Assembly: GCA_903813345.2 (NCBI GenBank)
Contig: CAIIXF020000012.1
Location: 11,452,932 to 11,516,931, forward strand
Length of the DNA: 64,000 bases
DNA from: Owenia fusiformis
Lineage: Eukaryota; Annelida; Polychaeta; Sabellida; Oweniidae
Direction: 5' to 3'
Shown: piece by piece, positions 7,078 to 51,986 of the stretch
How the letters are laid out: each line of letters begins with the position of its first letter
Position numbering within the stretch: position 1 is the stretch's first letter
Notes under the pieces: generated by a model
Databases searched by the model: none
Seen by the model: only the letters and a program-made list of their open reading frames with translations
Told to the model about the DNA's origin: nothing
Translations under genes and position numbers: made by a program

Positions 7078-7235
7078 TTCTCTCATCTGTCAGTTCTTGA
7101 GAGGGGGGGGGTCAGAATAATCTGCCTAAAAAGAATGTCCCACATCCGGGCTTTTTCTCTAATCTGTCAGTTCTTGAGAGGGGGGGGGGGGGTCAGAATA
7201 ATCTGCCTAAAAAGAATGTCCCACATCCGGGCTTT
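7078..7235. repeat. Two-copy tandem duplication with G tracts
   Basis: Units 7078-7154 and 7155-7235 are nearly identical apart from one base near the start and the length of a G run (9 versus 13). The right unit contains the last codons and stop of the calcium-binding protein gene. The left unit is a downstream copy of that gene end. Confidence 0.9.
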
Positions 7236-7786
7236 TGGCCAACCCAGAAGTCACGAAATGCTTTCATGAACTCCTCTTTGTCGATATCCCCGCTGTCATT
7301 CTTATCAATGGATTCAAATGCATTCAGGGAGAACTCCTCTGGAATTCCGAACAATATAAAGAATTCGCTAAATTCATCGACTGATAACTCTTTGTCTCTA
7401 TCCGTATCGATTAACTGGTATATAGATGCGGATATATAATCCAGAACCTTTGTGAAAACTTCAATATTTTCTGGTTTTAAATTCACTGCGGCGTTGCGGG
7501 TGAATTCGGTCAAGGTCACTTTCCGATTATTGCTGATATCGCCCCCTCTGGTGGCTACTTCTCCCCATAGAATTTGGATAAAGATGCGATCAACCATGTC
7601 GTATGCTTGTTGATGCAGTCCATGATATTTTGCCTTAATAAAATTGATTAACTGTTCGTAGTGCGATTTTGTGATGTAGCCAGTGTGTGCAATGTCAACA
7701 CAATCAAAATAAGTTTTCATCTTCTGTCGCCATAGTAAAGTTGTTGTTGCCTTGACAACTTCATCGGTCTGGTTTTGTTCATCCAT
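7193..7786 (-). CDS. Sarcoplasmic calcium-binding protein (SCP) family, four EF-hands
   Basis: A 197-aa cytosolic calcium buffer of the invertebrate SCP/calexcitin type, which binds Ca2+ (and Mg2+) in muscle and neurons. EF loops lie at about residues 31-42 (degenerate, His at position 12), 83-94 (usable acidic/Asn ligands, Glu at 12), 127-138 (DTDRDKELSVDE) and 161-172 (DKNDSGDIDKEE). The last two are canonical. Total length and the closing aromatic/Gly tail (FFLGRLF) match the family. The ATG is preceded in sense orientation by ctaatttcag, a good 3' splice site, so an untranslated first exon probably lies to the right, across the LINE insertion. There is no intron in the coding region. The stop falls immediately before a run of C (sense) inside the tandem duplication at 7078-7235. 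Confidence 0.85.
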   Translation of the reverse strand: MDEQNQTDEVVKATTTLLWRQKMKTYFDCVDIAHTGYITKSHYEQLINFIKAKYHGLHQQAYDMVDRIFIQILWGEVATRGGDISNNRKVTLTEFTRNAAVNLKPENIEVFTKVLDYISASIYQLIDTDRDKELSVDEFSEFFILFGIPEEFSLNAFESIDKNDSGDIDKEEFMKAFRDFWVGQKPGCGTFFLGRLF

Positions 7787-11666: not shown

Positions 11667-14600
11667 ATGTTGAATTAAACGCTGATGCGCTGTTACCCCA
11701 ATTCATTCCTAACTCACGCTGCAGCTTCTGAAAACAATATGCATGAATGGTGCAAGACCGGGTGGATCCGTAAGCGTCTTCTGCTGTTAACTCCCGCCCA
11801 TTATGGAACCCATAATGAGACACCATGCATGTATAAAGAGAAGCTTAGGGGTGGTCGAAATGAGATGGTAATTACTAATGGGGCAACCATGCAGCACTGC
11901 TTCGCAACCATATCCATCTGGAGCATCTCTCCGCTACTGTTGCAATCTGCATACTTGCTCGCTTCCGCTTGGTAGATGGCATTCCAAGGGACTTCAGCAT
12001 CCAAGTCACTGACTTTCCAGCAAAACCCCTGCATCCTACTTCAATAGGGAAGCTGTGGGCTTTCCAGTCCTTCTGTCTTGCTTCTGTGATAATGTCATCA
12101 TATTTTGTTTGTTTCAACTCATGGGAAACCTCAATTCTATCCTCCCATGGAACAGTCAGCTCGACCAAGATAACACACCTTTTGTCATTTGATCTAATGA
12201 CAATGTCTGGTCTTAGTGTCGTAATAGCTATATCTTGTGGAAACACCAACTTCCTGTCCAAATCGACCATGATTTCCCAGTCTGCTGTTGTTTGGAGGAT
12301 TCCTGGGAGCATGGTAGTTCTCTGCTGTTGGGGTGCTTTGCTCTGACCTTCTTTACAGAATGATATCCATGGTGTTGTATCTTTAGCTAGTGGGCAAGTT
12401 TTGGAAGCAATTATGATGTCAATTTGCCTGGCTACTTCTCTCAGGACTTGGTCGTGTCTCCAAGTATACCGATGCTCTCCTAGGGCTACACTACAGGAGC
12501 TCAGTATATGCCTTAGAGAAGCTGGTTGGTCTTTACAAAGGGAGCAGGTTGGATCATCCGTCAAGCCCCAGAGTGACAGATTAGTAGTCGTGGGAAGGGT
12601 GTTGCTTAGGGATTTAAGGAAGAAAGCAAGTGATGTTTCAGCTGTCTGCATAAGATCACTCCCTGTCACCTTTCTGCTCTCTACAGATTCCCAACTCAGC
12701 CATGCACCCTGACTGCCCATTCCAGTTGCTTTAACTAGTCTAGCTTCCTCCTCGGTTTTCCTTATTTCACTCGTTACCATCTTCCTTTTTGCTTTTGGAT
12801 CTGCCTTAGACCAAGGGACCCTGCCGTAACTCCCGAGCCCTTTCCGCCCCTCTGCAACAGTACCTACGATGTCACTCTGTCTCAGTCTGCTTTCAGCATT
12901 GCTGATAGCATCCTGAGCAGACCATTTCCTTCTTTCCGGAGGTTTGACTTCAGATGCCCTGGCTGTTGGATCTTTCGAGTCTCTGAGCAACATTGCTGTT
13001 CGCACTTTCGTTACTTTGAATTCTTCAACTATGGAGGAAGTAGGAAGTGCAGCTGGAGATGAAGTGCTGTAGAGGTTGACAGAGCTGAAAGATTTAGGAA
13101 CCCCTAACCATTTGCGAAGGAACTTGCCAGCTATCCTTTCCATGGCCTGCACAGAAGTTATGGAGAAGTCATACATGGTGAATGGCCAATTCAACCTAGG
13201 AATAATTCCATACTGGAAGCACCAGATCTTAAGCTTCCCAGGAAGTGGTGTCCTATCTACTGCTTTCATCCAGGTAGCTAGCTGATGAAGCGTATCTGCT
13301 GTGTGGGTCTTGTCATTGAGACTGTGGTCGAACCATTTTCCAAGGCATTTAATTGGATTCTCACTGATGGTCGGAATCATCTCTCCTTGCATTGTAAACT
13401 TGTTGTCTGATATTCCGCCTTTCTTGAGGATGAGGCTTCTGGATTTCTTGGGTTTGAAAGTTAATCTGCCCCATGTAGCCAGTTGTTCAAGTCGGGACAG
13501 AATCCATCTCATCCCAATTTCCTTGCATGTCATTACTGTTATGTCGTCCATGAACGCTCTGCAAGGGGGGTGGCGTGTTCCATCAGATGCGAGTGGCCCC
13601 CTACATTCTTTTGCTGCATCAGTCAGTAGAATGTTCATGGCTGCTACAAAAAGAATCACTGATACTGAGCATCCAGCCATGATGCCTTTCTCTAGTCGCT
13701 GCCAGTCAGAAGTGATATGTCTTGTGGAAAAGCGCATATATAGTCCGCCAAGATGTAATTTGACAAGTCCTATTACCTCAGGTGGCACATGGTAATGTTC
13801 CAGGGCAGTGTAGATAAGTTGATGAGGCACGCTTGGATAAGCTTTTGCGAGGTCAAGCCATACCACTGAAAGATCCTTCTTCTCCTTCTTGGCCTCCCCA
13901 ATCAGTTTGGATATAGCTGCTGTATGTTCGACACACCCAGCAAAGCCTGTTATTCCTCCTTTCTGGACAGAGGTGTCAACATACTTGTTTTCCATGAAAA
14001 AGGTTGTAAACCGTCTGGCAATCACAGCCCAAAATATCTTGCCTTCAACACTAAGTAGGGAGATTTCTCTAAATTGGTCAAGTGAGATGGAGTTCTCCTC
14101 CTTTGGGACAAAGCAGCCCTCTGCTATGAGCCAAGGAGCAGGGAGTTCTTTCTTAATCCAAAGGACTTGCATGAGTCTCCAAAGTCTTGTGGTCAATAGT
14201 GGACAGTTCTTATATATCTTGTAGGTAAGCCCACTTGGACCAGGTGCCGAGCCTGATCTGCCTTTTCTTATAACTTGTTGAACCTCAGACAGCTTGATTG
14301 GTGTTGTATCAAACTCATGTTCAGGCAATGGAGCAGGTGATAAATTGGGCTTCTCGGCCAATGGCTCATTACGTCTAGGGTCAGTATGGGCAGCTTGCAC
14401 ACTTGTGTTCATTTCTTCCTTTGTACATTCCAGGTTACCAGATTTCGGTTTCCCCAAAATATCACTTACGAATTGGAATGGACTCTTGAAAAACTTGCTC
14501 CTGGTTTTCCTCTTTTCAGACCTCTTTTTTCTCAAGTTATCGGCCTTCCTGAGCAGTAACAGCCTGCGTCTAAGAGATTCTCTCAGCCGATGGAGTCCTT

Positions 14601-15393
14601 CTTTCTCTGAAACGTCAGCATTTAAGAAAGCTTTCCTCAAACCTCGCAAGTCTTTCCTGATGTTACCTATTTCTTTCTGTCTTCTGCTTGGCCCTTTCTC
14701 TTTCGGGATTCCATCCCCCTTCTCCTCAAGTCCAAACCTGTCCATACATACATCATACACAATAGATGTCATAGCTTCAACTTTCCTCTTAGCGTCCCCC
14801 TTCAAAGTATTATTGAGGATCTGCTGTAAGTCAGCATCCAAGTCTTTCCATTCAGAACTTGATGCTGCTGGTAGTTTCAGTTTTGGTTTCCTTTCAAAAA
14901 CTGGTACTTTCACTGCTTCTTCCTGCTCTCTTGTGTTCACTTCCTCCTCTACGGAGACTACCTGGACACTGTGGTTGTTAACCGGGTCTGGGTTGTCCTG
15001 CGTCTGACGAGGGGTATTCACCTCTCTGCGTTGTGTTGGAGTTGATGAGCACTTCGTTTTACCTTGATGTATTCTTACGCCATGCCAGTTTTTGAAGATT
15101 CTTCCGCAACTTTCACATGAATCTCGTCGTCCGTTGTCATTGCGTGGGTCCTTGTCCGTTGTGTTCTGCCTATTGGATGAGTCTTCCGCCCCCCATCTCG
15201 GATCATCCTGGGGGTATTCTCTTGTTTGGTTGTCTGTAGCTGTAAAAGTGGGTGCTTCGGTCATCTGATCAAAGCATGGTTCTTAAGGGTGCTGGCCTTC
15301 AGAACCCCCAATGCTGTCTTTCCAAGCTGTCACAGTTCTATTCTCTGTCGCCATAGGGACTTTCCCCTAGGTCACTGGATAATTCCAGAACTA
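11667..15393 (-). mobile_element. Full-length RLE-type non-LTR retrotransposon (R2/NeSL/HERO-like group)
   Basis: It is a single-ORF element: about 130 bp of 5' leader (15265-15393), the 1129-codon ORF, and a 208-bp 3' UTR ending at 11667 with ...ttaattcaacat and no poly(A). Its 5' end abuts exactly a 3' fragment of the same element (15394-15810), and its last 417 bp are identical to that fragment by eye. The intact ORF and identical copies suggest recent activity. The group name is inferred from domain order, not from a database match. Confidence 0.8.
11875..15264 (-). CDS. RLE-type retrotransposon polyprotein: zinc finger, reverse transcriptase, CCHC, restriction-like endonuclease
   Basis: This intact 1129-aa protein would copy the element RNA by target-primed reverse transcription in the nucleus. 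An N-terminal C2HC finger at about 50-72 (C-x2-C-x12-H-x5-C) is likely for DNA binding. A basic, helical linker spans about 195-260. The RT covers about 320-620, with motif A Asp at 471 (WLDLAKAYPSVPH), motif B (GIMAGCSVSVILF, about 527-539) and motif C FMDD at 571-574. A CCHC knuckle lies at about 907-924 (C-x2-C-x8-H-x4-C). A PD-(D/E)xK-type restriction-like endonuclease lies at about 1015-1060 (RPDIVI, then VELTVPWE, then KQTKYDD). The order finger-RT-CCHC-RLE defines the R2-like early-branching LINE groups. Start chosen at the first Met of the long frame. No stop or frameshift is seen. Confidence 0.85.
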   Translation of the reverse strand: MTEAPTFTATDNQTREYPQDDPRWGAEDSSNRQNTTDKDPRNDNGRRDSCESCGRIFKNWHGVRIHQGKTKCSSTPTQRREVNTPRQTQDNPDPVNNHSVQVVSVEEEVNTREQEEAVKVPVFERKPKLKLPAASSSEWKDLDADLQQILNNTLKGDAKRKVEAMTSIVYDVCMDRFGLEEKGDGIPKEKGPSRRQKEIGNIRKDLRGLRKAFLNADVSEKEGLHRLRESLRRRLLLLRKADNLRKKRSEKRKTRSKFFKSPFQFVSDILGKPKSGNLECTKEEMNTSVQAAHTDPRRNEPLAEKPNLSPAPLPEHEFDTTPIKLSEVQQVIRKGRSGSAPGPSGLTYKIYKNCPLLTTRLWRLMQVLWIKKELPAPWLIAEGCFVPKEENSISLDQFREISLLSVEGKIFWAVIARRFTTFFMENKYVDTSVQKGGITGFAGCVEHTAAISKLIGEAKKEKKDLSVVWLDLAKAYPSVPHQLIYTALEHYHVPPEVIGLVKLHLGGLYMRFSTRHITSDWQRLEKGIMAGCSVSVILFVAAMNILLTDAAKECRGPLASDGTRHPPCRAFMDDITVMTCKEIGMRWILSRLEQLATWGRLTFKPKKSRSLILKKGGISDNKFTMQGEMIPTISENPIKCLGKWFDHSLNDKTHTADTLHQLATWMKAVDRTPLPGKLKIWCFQYGIIPRLNWPFTMYDFSITSVQAMERIAGKFLRKWLGVPKSFSSVNLYSTSSPAALPTSSIVEEFKVTKVRTAMLLRDSKDPTARASEVKPPERRKWSAQDAISNAESRLRQSDIVGTVAEGRKGLGSYGRVPWSKADPKAKRKMVTSEIRKTEEEARLVKATGMGSQGAWLSWESVESRKVTGSDLMQTAETSLAFFLKSLSNTLPTTTNLSLWGLTDDPTCSLCKDQPASLRHILSSCSVALGEHRYTWRHDQVLREVARQIDIIIASKTCPLAKDTTPWISFCKEGQSKAPQQQRTTMLPGILQTTADWEIMVDLDRKLVFPQDIAITTLRPDIVIRSNDKRCVILVELTVPWEDRIEVSHELKQTKYDDIITEARQKDWKAHSFPIEVGCRGFAGKSVTWMLKSLGMPSTKRKRASMQIATVAERCSRWIWLRSSAAWLPH

Positions 15394-18761: not shown

Positions 18762-18900
18762 ATTATGTTTTTGCCAAATAATACTTCCGAGAAATACAAC
18801 AAAAGTAGAAATACAATAGATAACTATAATCTTAATTGAGTCACATTGATGCCCTCGAGTTTTAACTCTCTGTGAAAGAAATCAAACTATTAAAAAGGTT

Positions 18901-19085
18901 ATGGATGAATTTTCCCAACACTGGCAGATCCAGGGTGGGCCCAGAAAAATTGTAGGGCCTCAATTAGTGGGCCGTTTTGGCCATTACTTGGCCTTTTTGG
19001 GCCAAATTTTCAAAAAATGGCCGGGCATTACATTTTCAAAATTTGGGCCCAATTTTGGGATTAAGGCACCCAATTATTTTTGATT
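18901..19085. repeat. Fragment of the 'gggccc...aattttggg' dispersed repeat
   Basis: Contains ggatccagg..gggcccagaaaaa, ggccgttttggcca and caaaatttgggccc. These blocks also occur, in tandem and inverted, at 52400-53400 and again near 60535-60840. Open frames here are not genes. Confidence 0.65.
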
Positions 19086-20126
19086 AACTATTTGATTCTT
19101 GGCAAGTTTTGTGTATATTTCATTTGTTGTCTTTTAAAGGGGGGGGGGGTGCACTGACAATTTCTGTCTTCATATGTCAAATATTGAAATACCTTTTATG
19201 GATTAAGTGTCTGCTACTATGGTAACTCGTGTTACATGTCATTTTGGGATTGATGTATATGTATTGTTTAACATTGAATTCCTTCCTGCATGACATTCAG
19301 ATTAAAATATTATAAAATCATGAGTTTAGCAAATGATCACAAAAAGTTCTAACAACGTCCAATCCCAGAATCCGTTCGCTCGGAGGTTTAACCAGTTCGG
19401 AAATAGTTTCACGAACATAGTGAGAACAAATGAGCCGTGACTGAAAAAATATCATGGAAGTAGGGCTTCATTAAGAGCTGATATGCCCACTCGGGGAAGG
19501 CAGTATTTGGGCAGGGCGGTAAAAGGGTAGGTGGTTCTATTAAATTTTGGTCCTACTCTCTATTGATTTATATGGTGACCTAATTACAATTATTTTCCTT
19601 ATTATTTATACACAGTCATGACCAGTAAGGGCCGTAAGGAAAGGGGACCATAAACCCCAGGGGACCATAATTTCTTTTACACCTGTTACCCAATCTAAAT
19701 GCTTTGTGACTAGAACATAAAAACGCTAAGGTATACATTTTTTTTTTTTAAATTGGCTCCATCTGTATTTACATTATATTTCTGTCGACAAAATTGCAAG
19801 CAACATATACAATTGACCTACCAATGTATTTTTACCATCTCAAATACAATATATCTCTCTCCATTCATTGCCATGCCTATCTACTAAAACATCTGAATAA
19901 CTGTATTTCTGTAGAGGCAGATACCTCGTCTGCTTCGTGCCTGGCTACACCTATGCAATCCATTCATTGTCATGCCTATTTACTAAAACATCTGAATAAC
20001 TGTATTTCAGTAGAAGCAATTGCCTCGTCTGCCTTGCTACACCCATGCATTTCATTCCATTCTTTGTCATATTGAAGAAACCTTCATGTTTTGTCCTTAT
20101 AAAATGTTATCATGGCAAGGGACCGA
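19086..20126. repeat. Non-coding, with a two-copy ~100-bp tandem duplication
   Basis: Units at about 19862-19961 and 19962-20060 share catgcctat, actaaaacatctgaataact and gcctcgtctgc. A G tract lies at 19138-19150 and an A/T tract at 19738-19751. This is the 3' side of the cGAS-like gene; I saw no clear AATAAA on the minus strand close to its stop. Confidence 0.6.
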
Positions 20127-21494
20127 TTAAACTTTACGAAAAGGACGATCGAAATAATTTGGATTGATACAGTCTATCAAAACTATTGACTTTTTAGCGT
20201 CATGTTGCCACTCAAGTTTAACATATCTACCATGCGATTTTGATGTAGCTAACAGATAGTATTCGTGCAAACCATCCATTAAAGATTGTAAAATGCGATT
20301 CCTTCTGACCCCAATGAGGTTATTTGAGAGAAATGCATTCCACCAGTTATTACTCCGATTTAGCTTAATATGCTGTACAATCCACACCATTGAAATGAGC
20401 ATAGGTATACGATCATTTGGCGATAATCTTTGTGGTTCCCCAGGGAATATTGGATTTGGAATGAGCAGGTTAGAGTAAAACAAGTACAGGAAGTCTTCAT
20501 CGCAATTGTATTCATCATCGGGTATATCGCAGGGATTGTGTTCATCATCGGGTTTTACGATCAATTCATTGATGATGGAAATTAAGCATTCGCCCAAACT
20601 GCTTGCTCGACACTTCTGTTGATGATTCAGGATAAGAGTTTTTAGAACATGTGATGAAATTTGCCATACAATTCCCAATAAACGTGTTAAATTGGAGAGA
20701 TACTTCAATGTTAGAAATAACTTCCGATGGGGTGGTGTTAGTACATACTTATCTGAATTTGGTAGTTCTACCACGGATTCTAACCAAATGTCCCAGGAAT
20801 TCTTTCTATCAATAATATGAACACTTGGCCCTAACTCATGAGGCTTCCACTTCAAACAGAAACACAAGTCGATGTCTGTTATACCTAAAGGCGCACCAAC
20901 CCGTATTAGCAAAGCACTTGGGCCATGGATGACAACATTATCTATTTCTTTTTTGTAGGACCGGCGGTAGTTTTGGCTCCAGTAGAATTTTACAGATTTC
21001 CGAGTTTCCATTTCTTTTAATACTGCGGATATCGTATTGAGTAGCATGTTAAGTAACTCTTCAGTTCTAAGATCGGCTTCACCATCATTCTCATTGATAT
21101 TTTCCAAGCACTCGGAAGGTAGAGGATAAGGGAGTTTATTAACATTGATTCTAATTTTGCGTTTTCCATCATCCTCATGGCTGTCACTTGCATTCGTTAC
21201 ATCTGTTACATATTGAGATAGCCCTAGTATCGGATGGTAATCATACTCATCGGGGTGAAGTATTTTTGTCCTGTCATAGTAGCTCCCTCGATTTATCAGC
21301 CCATCGGTGGCAAGCGCTGGTTCTATTTTGCCAACATTCTCGAGGATATCTTTTACAAGATTCTCCACAAATGAAGTATGCTCTTCCAACTGGCTTTCTG
21401 CATAAACATTTCTAATGTCAACTGTGTTAGCCGTTAGGTTTATGAATTTTGTTAAACGTTTCGTGTTATGTGATTTACTCAAACTGCATCCCAT
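20127..21494 (-). CDS. cGAS-like receptor / Mab-21 family nucleotidyltransferase with lipidation-type N-terminus
   Basis: An intronless 455-aa protein with the Mab-21/cGAS nucleotidyltransferase fold. Family enzymes sense a ligand (often double-stranded RNA or DNA) and make a cyclic dinucleotide that activates STING. The P-loop-like GS is at 70-71, followed by the metal-binding pair E83/D85 in PDEYDYH. The third acidic residue is D209 (or D207) in GITDIDLCF. All catalytic positions therefore appear intact, unlike many inactive Mab-21 relatives. The C-terminal helical half contains HVLKTLILNHQQKC, matching the Mab-21 HLKTLLL block. The cGAS H-x5-CC-x6-C zinc thumb is not evident. The protein starts MGCSLSKS, with Gly2 for N-myristoylation and Cys3 for palmitoylation. 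The start is the first Met of the frame, and this motif supports it. Ligand and product cannot be told from sequence. Confidence 0.85.
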   Translation of the reverse strand: MGCSLSKSHNTKRLTKFINLTANTVDIRNVYAESQLEEHTSFVENLVKDILENVGKIEPALATDGLINRGSYYDRTKILHPDEYDYHPILGLSQYVTDVTNASDSHEDDGKRKIRINVNKLPYPLPSECLENINENDGEADLRTEELLNMLLNTISAVLKEMETRKSVKFYWSQNYRRSYKKEIDNVVIHGPSALLIRVGAPLGITDIDLCFCLKWKPHELGPSVHIIDRKNSWDIWLESVVELPNSDKYVLTPPHRKLFLTLKYLSNLTRLLGIVWQISSHVLKTLILNHQQKCRASSLGECLISIINELIVKPDDEHNPCDIPDDEYNCDEDFLYLFYSNLLIPNPIFPGEPQRLSPNDRIPMLISMVWIVQHIKLNRSNNWWNAFLSNNLIGVRRNRILQSLMDGLHEYYLLATSKSHGRYVKLEWQHDAKKSIVLIDCINPNYFDRPFRKV

Positions 21495-21660
21495 CTTTAA
21501 CGATAGGTTTAAAATCTTTGATGTTTTTTTTTGATTCCAAATATAAAGTGAACTTTTGTAACTGTAATACGCTGTACACTGTACGTGTATTCACCGTTGC
21601 TCAAATTAAGTCCAGACTGTAAGACCCGCTGTAATATTTGTCACTCAGTGTTCCCATGAT

Positions 21661-21670
21661 GGAACTCTCC
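21661..21670 (-). promoter_or_regulatory. kappaB-like site upstream of the cGAS-like gene
   Basis: ggaactctcc lies 167 bp before the start codon and fits a relaxed NF-kappaB half-site pattern (GGRNN..YYCC). A single 10-bp match in AT-rich DNA is weak. It is listed because the gene family is commonly under immune control. Confidence 0.2.
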
Positions 21671-21965
21671 AATAGAATAATGTATACAACAAATACCCTT
21701 GGATCAATGACGTCAGATAGAAGAACGGGTGAGATAACAAGTGTGTTTAAGAAATTAGTTACTTGTTATCAGTGTCGTTAAAGAGATTAATTACTTATAA
21801 AGAAGGCAAGGGCAAATTAAAGTTGTGTAGGCCCTATGTGATATAAACAAGTGTATTTATCATTCGACTTATTTCTAAATATTAACGCCTCTGATAAATA
21901 TGGACCATAGTCTATAACAATCATAGTCTATAACCAATAAAATAGATAATGGATTAGTAACCCAG

Positions 21966-50624: not shown

Positions 50625-51986
50625 ATGGCATCAGACAATATAAATATAGGTAAATAAAAATATATTACAAAACTTAGTATAATAATACATAGTGAATTTA
50701 CTGTCTTCTTTTTATCTTTTTTACAAACAGAATTTGAATTAAGGGGAAAATTAAAGATCTTTGTAAAACAACAATATATATATCTATATCTTTTATTGAC
50801 TCAATAACCATGTCATGTAAATGACATATCAGTCACTACAGTGTACAAAAAACTACAAACTACAACTACATATAACAAAACTAATTTACATCATATCATA
50901 GAGTCACAAATCTAAGTATTGCTTATATGAAACACACTGAAAAGACTTCTTTCCATACAGATCAGTGGTGGGGAAAACTATCCATTGAAATCGGTGGTAA
51001 ATTGGGAACTGACTTTGATACAATTGGAATCCACCTTGGTGTTGATAATGCAGCTCTCAAAGATATCAAGAGTTCTTATCCCGGGGCAGCTAAACAATGG
51101 GGTAAGGAATTGCTGATAGAGTGGAGACAGGAACATGCTGATTGGACACATGAAAAACAGATAACAACGTTACAAAATGCTTTGGAAGATTCTGGTAGAA
51201 ATGATCTTAAAGTGAAGGTGGAGAAAGCAGAAGCAAAACGTAAGAAGTTCTACTATTTAACCAATCCAGTTTATGACTATTTCTTTCATGTAAGTGATCA
51301 GTTGATCAATATAACACTCAACTCAGCAAATTTTTGAAATAAAAAAAACGAGACTCCAAGCCAATAAATATTCTGTTAAAATTTTCTGTTTTCATATTTT
51401 GATTTTCAGTTATCATTTCTATATTATATGTACACTTCCCTCCATAAGTTTGGCAACTGAGTCTTCATTTGATAACATGTTCACTGTTCCACAACTAATT
51501 ACTTTGACGGAACATCAATGTAACAAAAAATGGATGAACTCCCTGGATACGACTTCTTTCGTTTTCTCGATTTAAACCTTCTTATAAGTCAAGTTGCGGA
51601 TTATCATTTGACACAAACTTAGACAATATAGTCTAACTTTGTGCCAAATTATAATCGGCAACTTGACTTGTAAGTAGGTTTAAATCCAGAAAACAAAAAA
51701 CTCGTAACCAGGAAGTTCATCCATTTTGTTACATTGATGTTCCGTCCAAGTAACTAGATGTGAAAAAGTGAGGTTAAAGCCTGTGAATGAGTAAATCTTT
51801 ATTTTGCCCTGTGATAGTTCAGAAATTAATTATGTTATATATATTTCAGGGGTTGCAGCTCAAGAACAAGCTAAGCAACCCAAAGAAGATCAAGGTGCAA
51901 AGGATGAATTAGATTTGCCCTCACCACCTGCAGAGAATCCAAAAGATGCTCAGTTGGAGGCAAGATTGAAAAAACTTAAAAGTTAA
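50625..51986 (+). CDS. Small Death-domain protein (3 exons, 146 aa)
   Basis: Exons 50625-50649, 50961-51239 and 51850-51986 join in one 441-nt frame with phase-1 introns (ATAG|GTAAAT, catacag|AT, AAAC|GTAAGA, atttcag|GG). The start gcaATGG has G at -3 and +4. Exon 2 is almost entirely a Death domain of about 90 residues: WWGKLSIEIGGKLGTDFDTI, then LGVDNAALKDIK, QWGKELLIEWRQEH and LQNALEDSGRNDLK match the six-helix pattern with its conserved W, LG, LL..W and L..AL positions. Death domains pair with others in apoptosis and immune adaptor complexes. Exon 3 is a charged disordered tail ending in ARLKKLKS. There is no signal peptide, kinase or second domain, so it is a single-domain adaptor or decoy. 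The partner is unknown. Confidence 0.75.
51428..51800. mobile_element. Foldback element inside the Death-domain gene intron
   Basis: About 51495-51600 and 51650-51755 are inverted copies (blocks cggaacatcaatgtaaca, aaatggatgaact, cttataagtcaagttgc). The left outer end (ctccataagtttggcaact) matches the termini of 5054-5914. No right outer end was found. Confidence 0.75.

Follow-up and report, generated by a model that had tools for sequence, protein, structure and literature searches.

A candidate lipid-anchored cGAS-like enzyme and its large, mostly intronless family in Owenia fusiformis

The animal cGAS-like receptors (cGLRs) are the closest described counterparts of the locus characterized here, which shares with them homology to Mab21/cGAS proteins, a GS motif with an acidic triad and the lack of a recognised appended domain (Slavik 2021; Li 2023). 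It differs from them in an arginine before the GS, a longer catalytic spacing, an acidic core, an acylation-type start and a conserved set of two histidines and two cysteines (H/H/C/C). PMC9980059 records very large sets of cGLRs in bivalves, and seven STINGs in a coral whose cGLRs number 42. Many enzymes seemed inactive in the cGLR screen of Li et al., who count the unknown identity of activating ligands among its key limits, and the main text of PMC9980059 contains no word beginning with "myrist", "membrane" or "zinc". Two other nucleotidyltransferases bear on the N-terminus of the new locus. Myristoylation of OAS2 (p69/p71) on Gly2 is needed for its Golgi location and antiviral activity, and the signal is named as Gly2 plus a nearby serine (PMC13372824, in part). 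OAS2 is thus alike in being a nucleotidyltransferase with an N-terminal Gly2 signal, myristoylation being a prediction for our protein, but it belongs to the OAS superfamily, whereas the present protein is of Mab21 type and has Cys3; PMC10732462 places OAS enzymes within a different bacterial clade, as no more than distant relatives of cGLRs. Vertebrate cGAS is alike in catalytic residues and sequence profile. The protein studied here differs from it in having no long N-terminal extension, and carries a candidate lipid anchor where vertebrate cGAS has a phosphoinositide-binding tail; according to the review PMC10572901, the N-terminus of human cGAS anchors the enzyme at the plasma membrane via PI(4,5)P2. 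Neither a myristoylated cGLR nor the H/H/C/C set was found in the literature searched by title and beginning of abstract, which mostly excluded subscription papers. Large cGLR sets, as in bivalves and corals, are known already; a lipid-anchored cGLR and the H/H/C/C set had no counterpart in the literature searched.

The window, i.e., the whole stretch of DNA that was analysed, is 64,000 nucleotides long, and its gene of interest (locus L001) is on G000:C12, in an assembly of 498 Mb. A sequence-only reading had proposed a catalytically complete cGAS-like enzyme at 20127-21494 and gave no strand. We set it on the minus strand, where the interval is an unbroken ORF of 455 amino acids running from ATG to stop with no frame break, and the MGCSLSKS start, GS at 70-71, E83, D85 and both D207 and D209 are all there as that reading had listed them. 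The features of the locus are the following.

20127..21494, minus strand: coding sequence of a Mab21/cGAS-type nucleotidyltransferase (from the ORF, Pfam Mab-21, and the family alignment and profile)
21471..21494, minus strand: codons 1-8, MGCSLSKS, candidate signal for N-myristoylation (Gly2, Ser6, Lys7) and palmitoylation (Cys3); same in L002 and L003
21282..21287, minus strand: G70-S71, activation-loop motif; invariant in 37/37, GS in 78/80 aligned frames, the other two lacking the N-terminal half
21240..21248, minus strand: E83-Y84-D85, first two catalytic acids; E83 and D85 invariant in 37/37
20868..20870, minus strand: D209, likely third catalytic acid; invariant in 37/37
20727..20729, minus strand: H256, proposed metal site; 80/80 aligned frames
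20622..20624, minus strand: H291, proposed metal site; 79/80
20610..20612, minus strand: C295, proposed metal site; 79/80
20586..20588, minus strand: C303, proposed metal site; 78/80
21495..21675, minus strand: shared 5' flank (promoter or 5' UTR); blocks common with L002 and L003, frame mostly not conserved
18764..20060, minus strand: 3' flank with several blocks (53 to 385 bp) matching the L003 3' flank; part may be repeats

The gene belongs to a large family. Searching the genome with the L001 protein gave at least 117 matches, merged into at least 91 places, some of them fragments. Initially 87 loci were parsed, one of which (L007) contains part of the L003 gene; the remaining four, on C9, were added as L105-L108. 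Frames of at least 330 amino acids occur in 80 of the 87 parsed loci, and most family members are intronless over the domain. The seven loci with shorter frames (L003, L024, L030, L031, L063, L069, L076) were not aligned, and the 80 aligned frames include L001 and four frames bearing stops (L045, L047, L074, L088). Identity to L001 is 70% for L002, 60 and 79% for the two pieces of L003 (within G000:C12:3136917-3140786), and 42-46% for L004-L006.

The start codon of L001 appears well supported, since no ATG other than that of MGC, which has the context AAAGATGG, occurs in frame from the upstream stop to the domain. About 180 bp 5' of it match L002 in blocks, and 5' of the last dozen codons before the start, the conserved DNA is read in three frames in L001, L002 and L003 as a result of indels. 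Because the shared DNA is read in three different frames, the stretch upstream of those dozen codons is unlikely to be coding and looks like a 5' UTR or promoter. Gly2, Cys3, Ser6 and Lys7 make up a pattern for myristoylation plus palmitoylation, and the N-myristoylation consensus calls for Met-Gly at the start and Ser/Thr at position 6, to which MGCSLSKS conforms. An NMT gene is present in the genome.

The relatives were searched for an MG-type start in 68 loci including L001; loci were dropped if the frame contained a stop, was open at its 5' end or lacked a Met, or if its GS was not located, and L105-L108 were not part of the count. The start was taken as the first ATG with a purine at -3 and G at +4, and otherwise as the first ATG, a rule that in four loci, L021, L023, L025 and L026, passes over an upstream ATG of poor context. 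With this rule, 14/68 loci start with MG and 12/68, L001 included, with MGxxx[S/T] (Fisher p 7e-12); the plain first-ATG rule gives 10/68 and 8/68, respectively (Fisher p 7e-8). Among internal Met of the family, against which both p values were computed, 24/591 are MG and 1/591 is MGxxx[S/T]. Since family members are not independent, MGxxx[S/T] was also counted by identity cluster, and this start was found in 6/28 clusters at 50% identity (p 3e-8), 6/31 at 60% and 3/17 at 40% (p 7e-5). Outside the scored set, L024 starts MGSSYSRI and L003 starts MGCSLSKSQ. The MGCSLSKS of L001 recurs in L002 and L003, but with a dS of 0.14 L001 and L002 have diverged little over their first 80 codons, so that their identical start says little when taken alone. 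In L025, L026 and L027, Gly2, Ser6 and Lys7 are constant, residues 4-5 are variable and there is a synonymous change at Gly2. The earlier suggestion that the MGC start resembles a dual-acylation signal is strengthened by the 11 other scorable members with MGxxx[S/T], and the idea that the L001 N-terminus may be a lipid anchor gains support.

The anchor is no hallmark of the family, since 54/68 scorable members start otherwise, among them L004, L005 and L006, which rank next in closeness to L001 after L002 and L003. On a quick tree of 77 rows with several long branches, from which L015, L038 and L077 were left out, the MG label falls on 14 rows, requires nine changes and lies on both sides of the midpoint, and for this reason the MG start was gained or lost repeatedly. 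Unlikely, in our judgement, is a soluble cGAS-like receptor that carries no lipid and whose MGC is a by-product of a good ATGG start context. The lack of MG in L004-L006 speaks for such a protein, and ATGG does favour Ala and Gly at position 2 (26/68 starts are MA and 14/68 MG), but start context would not account for Ser/Thr at position 6 in 12 of the 14 MG starts vs. 9 of the 54 others, nor for the internal ATGG codons, of which 23/175 are MG and just 1/175 is MGxxx[ST].

Lipid is not the only route by which relatives of L001 might reach a membrane. By hydropathy alone, L054 and L056 are predicted to have three strong hydrophobic segments each toward the C-terminus, and L056 also starts MGNATSKQ. 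L043 has one strong predicted segment close to its N-terminus. In L106 (G000:C9:1140073-1141988), which is perhaps a polytopic membrane form, two marginal segments are predicted near the N-terminus, ahead of the enzyme domain. Hydropathy exceeded 1.6 in 17/87 frames; many of these stretches are inside the enzyme domain and were not taken as membrane segments. C-terminal CaaX prenylation was considered as an alternative anchor and rejected, with one match (L043) in 87 frames, 3'-open frames not being counted. Part of the cGAS-like family may act attached to membranes.

Homology to cGAS emerges from the family more clearly than from L001. The L001 protein alone matches Pfam Mab-21 weakly (17.9 bits over residues 72-215; cut-off 24.1), and a single-sequence PDB search with it gave weak matches (best E 0.18). 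A family profile of 37 members (A1) found cGAS chains in the PDB at E 2.6e-10, with a firm stretch in the N-lobe (i-Evalue 1.8e-7) and a collinear stretch in the C-lobe of weak i-Evalue (0.68). A C-lobe profile (A3) matched 12 PDB sequences, all of them cGAS and none a cGLR chain, with a best E of 0.17. Pfam Mab-21 was matched at E <= 0.01 by 19 of the 37 members, and no appended domain was recognised in the L001 protein. At a mean column identity of 20%, the 37-member alignment has invariant columns at G70, S71, K77, E83, D85, L159, D209, H256, K264 and H291. Because D209 is invariant in 37/37 and D207 is just near-invariant, appearing merely in the 90% list, the third catalytic acid is likely D209, which settles the "D209 (or D207)" of the sequence-only reading. 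Throughout the aligned frames, GS, E-x-D and D209 are kept in 78/80, i.e., in all those covering them; L021 has Asp in place of Glu83, and L038 and L077 miss the N-terminal half. The view of L001 as a cGAS-like enzyme with intact active-site residues is supported by these comparisons of sequence.

For comparison with described enzymes, we used the cGLR definition given in parts of PMC9980059 and PMC8410604, whose strict motif is h[QT]GS X8-20 [DE]h[DE]h X50-90 h[DE]h. L001 departs from it at two points, as Arg precedes GS and the D85-D209 gap is 123 residues vs. X50-90. In the family, Q or T stands before GS in 8/82 members, and the gap ranges from 116 to 213 among 82 members, with 0/82 inside X50-90. 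Nine other measurable Mab21-type genes of the genome also exceed this range (gaps of 104-165), so the printed spacing may be loosely applied. On the residues tested, L001 would be placed as a variant within the cGLR kind. With a pI of 5.9 and a net charge of about -8, its protein core is acidic (the median pI of the family is 6.2), which argues against simple nucleic-acid sensing and suggests that the ligand may be non-nucleic-acid, though this charge is compatible with a local basic groove for nucleic acid.

The acidic core and unusual motif spacing would also fit a Mab21-type scaffold whose signalling involves no synthesis of cyclic dinucleotides. Such a role has been proposed for Mab21 proteins of crustaceans, which according to PMC12928593 activate IKKepsilon outside the canonical nucleic-acid sensing paradigm. 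We hold this to be quite unlikely for L001. The retention of GS, E83, D85 and D209 through a mean column identity of 20% is hard to explain without catalysis, and in the same alignment L092, the best Mab-21 match of the genome, has NN at the GS and Asn at the third acid.

Vertebrate cGAS has a zinc thumb of the form H-x5-CC-x6-C. No such motif occurs in the L001 protein sequence, which in this respect differs from vertebrate cGAS. The sequence-only reading was therefore correct that a cGAS-type zinc thumb is missing, but it overlooked a clade-specific set formed by H256, H291, C295 and C303. All four residues are found together in 78/80 aligned frames; L078 lacks both cysteines and L015 is unaligned in this region. 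The check was extended to 17 further loci, comprising the four family members on C9 and 13 other Mab21-type loci. All four residues occur in three of L105-L108; in the remaining one, L108, Gln stands at the position of H256. Outside the family, 11/13 loci lack the full set and L099 and L102 have all four; L103 and L104 carry both Cys, and some non-family loci share single letters, some of these frames being partial. In a profile alignment to a cGAS chain, H256 and H291-x3-C295-x7-C303 lie in helices that align just past the cGAS thumb, whose position in that chain we take to be right before the first helix of the H/H/C/C region. Since the two His and two Cys are present and absent jointly, they suggest a metal site that differs from the zinc thumb of cGAS. 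Such a set would serve as the clade's sequence mark and poses a direct structural question.

A possible downstream partner is encoded in the same genome. STING_LBD gave 14 matches on six contigs (C7, C5, C10, C346, C12, C9), and because eight of them cover the same C-terminal half of the profile, STING has multiplied to at least eight copies or pieces. The explanation that we favour, and regard as reasonably probable, is that L001 encodes a cGAS-like receptor that is tethered to a membrane by acylation and supplies STING with a cyclic dinucleotide. Gly2 would carry an N-myristoyl group and Cys3 probably a palmitoyl group, and the protein would sit on the cytoplasmic face of a membrane. Binding of a ligand there would lead the enzyme to make a cyclic dinucleotide, which in turn would activate STING. 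A metal ion would probably be bound by H256, H291, C295 and C303 within the C-terminal lobe, and membrane attachment would have been gained or kept repeatedly in this large, mostly intronless family. We infer acylation, membrane location, catalysis and its product, coupling to STING, metal binding and any ligand from the sequences compared here. The tether is plausible because it has two precedents, namely Gly2 of OAS2 and the N-terminus of human cGAS.

If this explanation is true, the cGLR family gains a counterpart to myristoylated OAS2. Should some cGLRs be membrane-tethered, their location would be a testable guide to ligands; the N-terminal tagging practised by Slavik et al. (PMC8410604) would leave such a protein without a free Gly2. 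More tentatively, and with considerable doubt, it is conceivable that the roughly 90 members form an undescribed cGAS-like clade in which an H/H/C/C metal site replaces the zinc thumb, which has moved to membranes repeatedly (by acylation in several subclades and transmembrane segments in others), surveys membrane-associated and possibly non-nucleic-acid ligands, and feeds several STINGs.

The intronless gene had also been suggested to be a retrocopy. That L001 is a retrocopy or a decaying pseudogene is very improbable, for although its coding sequence is intronless and some relatives are broken (L003, which keeps the MGCSLSKS start, by an interruption of about 330 bp containing stops, and L045, L047, L063, L074 and L088 by stops), L001 is open over 455 codons with a dN/dS of about 0.48, its flanks are shared with L002 and L003, and the family is mostly single long open frames, as judged on coding sequence only, in which UTR introns are invisible. 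Because blocks in both the 5' and 3' flanks of L001 match L002 and L003, the closest paralogs appear to have arisen by DNA duplication rather than retrocopy. Just 3' of L001, at about 19860-20060, two similar units of about 100 bases were seen by eye, both of which match one stretch beside L002 and L003.

By the NG86 method, dN and dS are 0.20 and 0.42 for L001/L002, and 0.15 and 0.52 for L004/L005. The corresponding values are 0.109/0.111 for L025/L026, 0.125/0.174 for L065/L066 and 0.173/0.232 for L021/L023, which suggests that some subclades change fast. Close paralogs among L025, L026, L027, L065, L066, L021 and L023 have dN/dS of about 0.7-1 with catalytic residues kept, a hint of diversifying selection.

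Elsewhere in the window, an unbroken minus-strand ORF of 1129 amino acids at 11875-15264 with RVT_1 (E 7.7e-18) and zf-RVT is a non-LTR-type retrotransposon ORF, and two minus-strand ORFs at 863-2701, whose matches to gag, aspartyl protease and the beginning of reverse transcriptase are weak to moderate, represent a partial LTR-type retrotransposon. An ORF of 197 amino acids at 7193-7786 on the minus strand has EF-hands (E 6.4e-14) and likely encodes a calcium-binding protein. On the plus strand, about 29 kb from L001, an ORF of 136 amino acids at 50927-51337 contains a Death domain (E 8.7e-5) and may be an exon of a gene for immunity or apoptosis.
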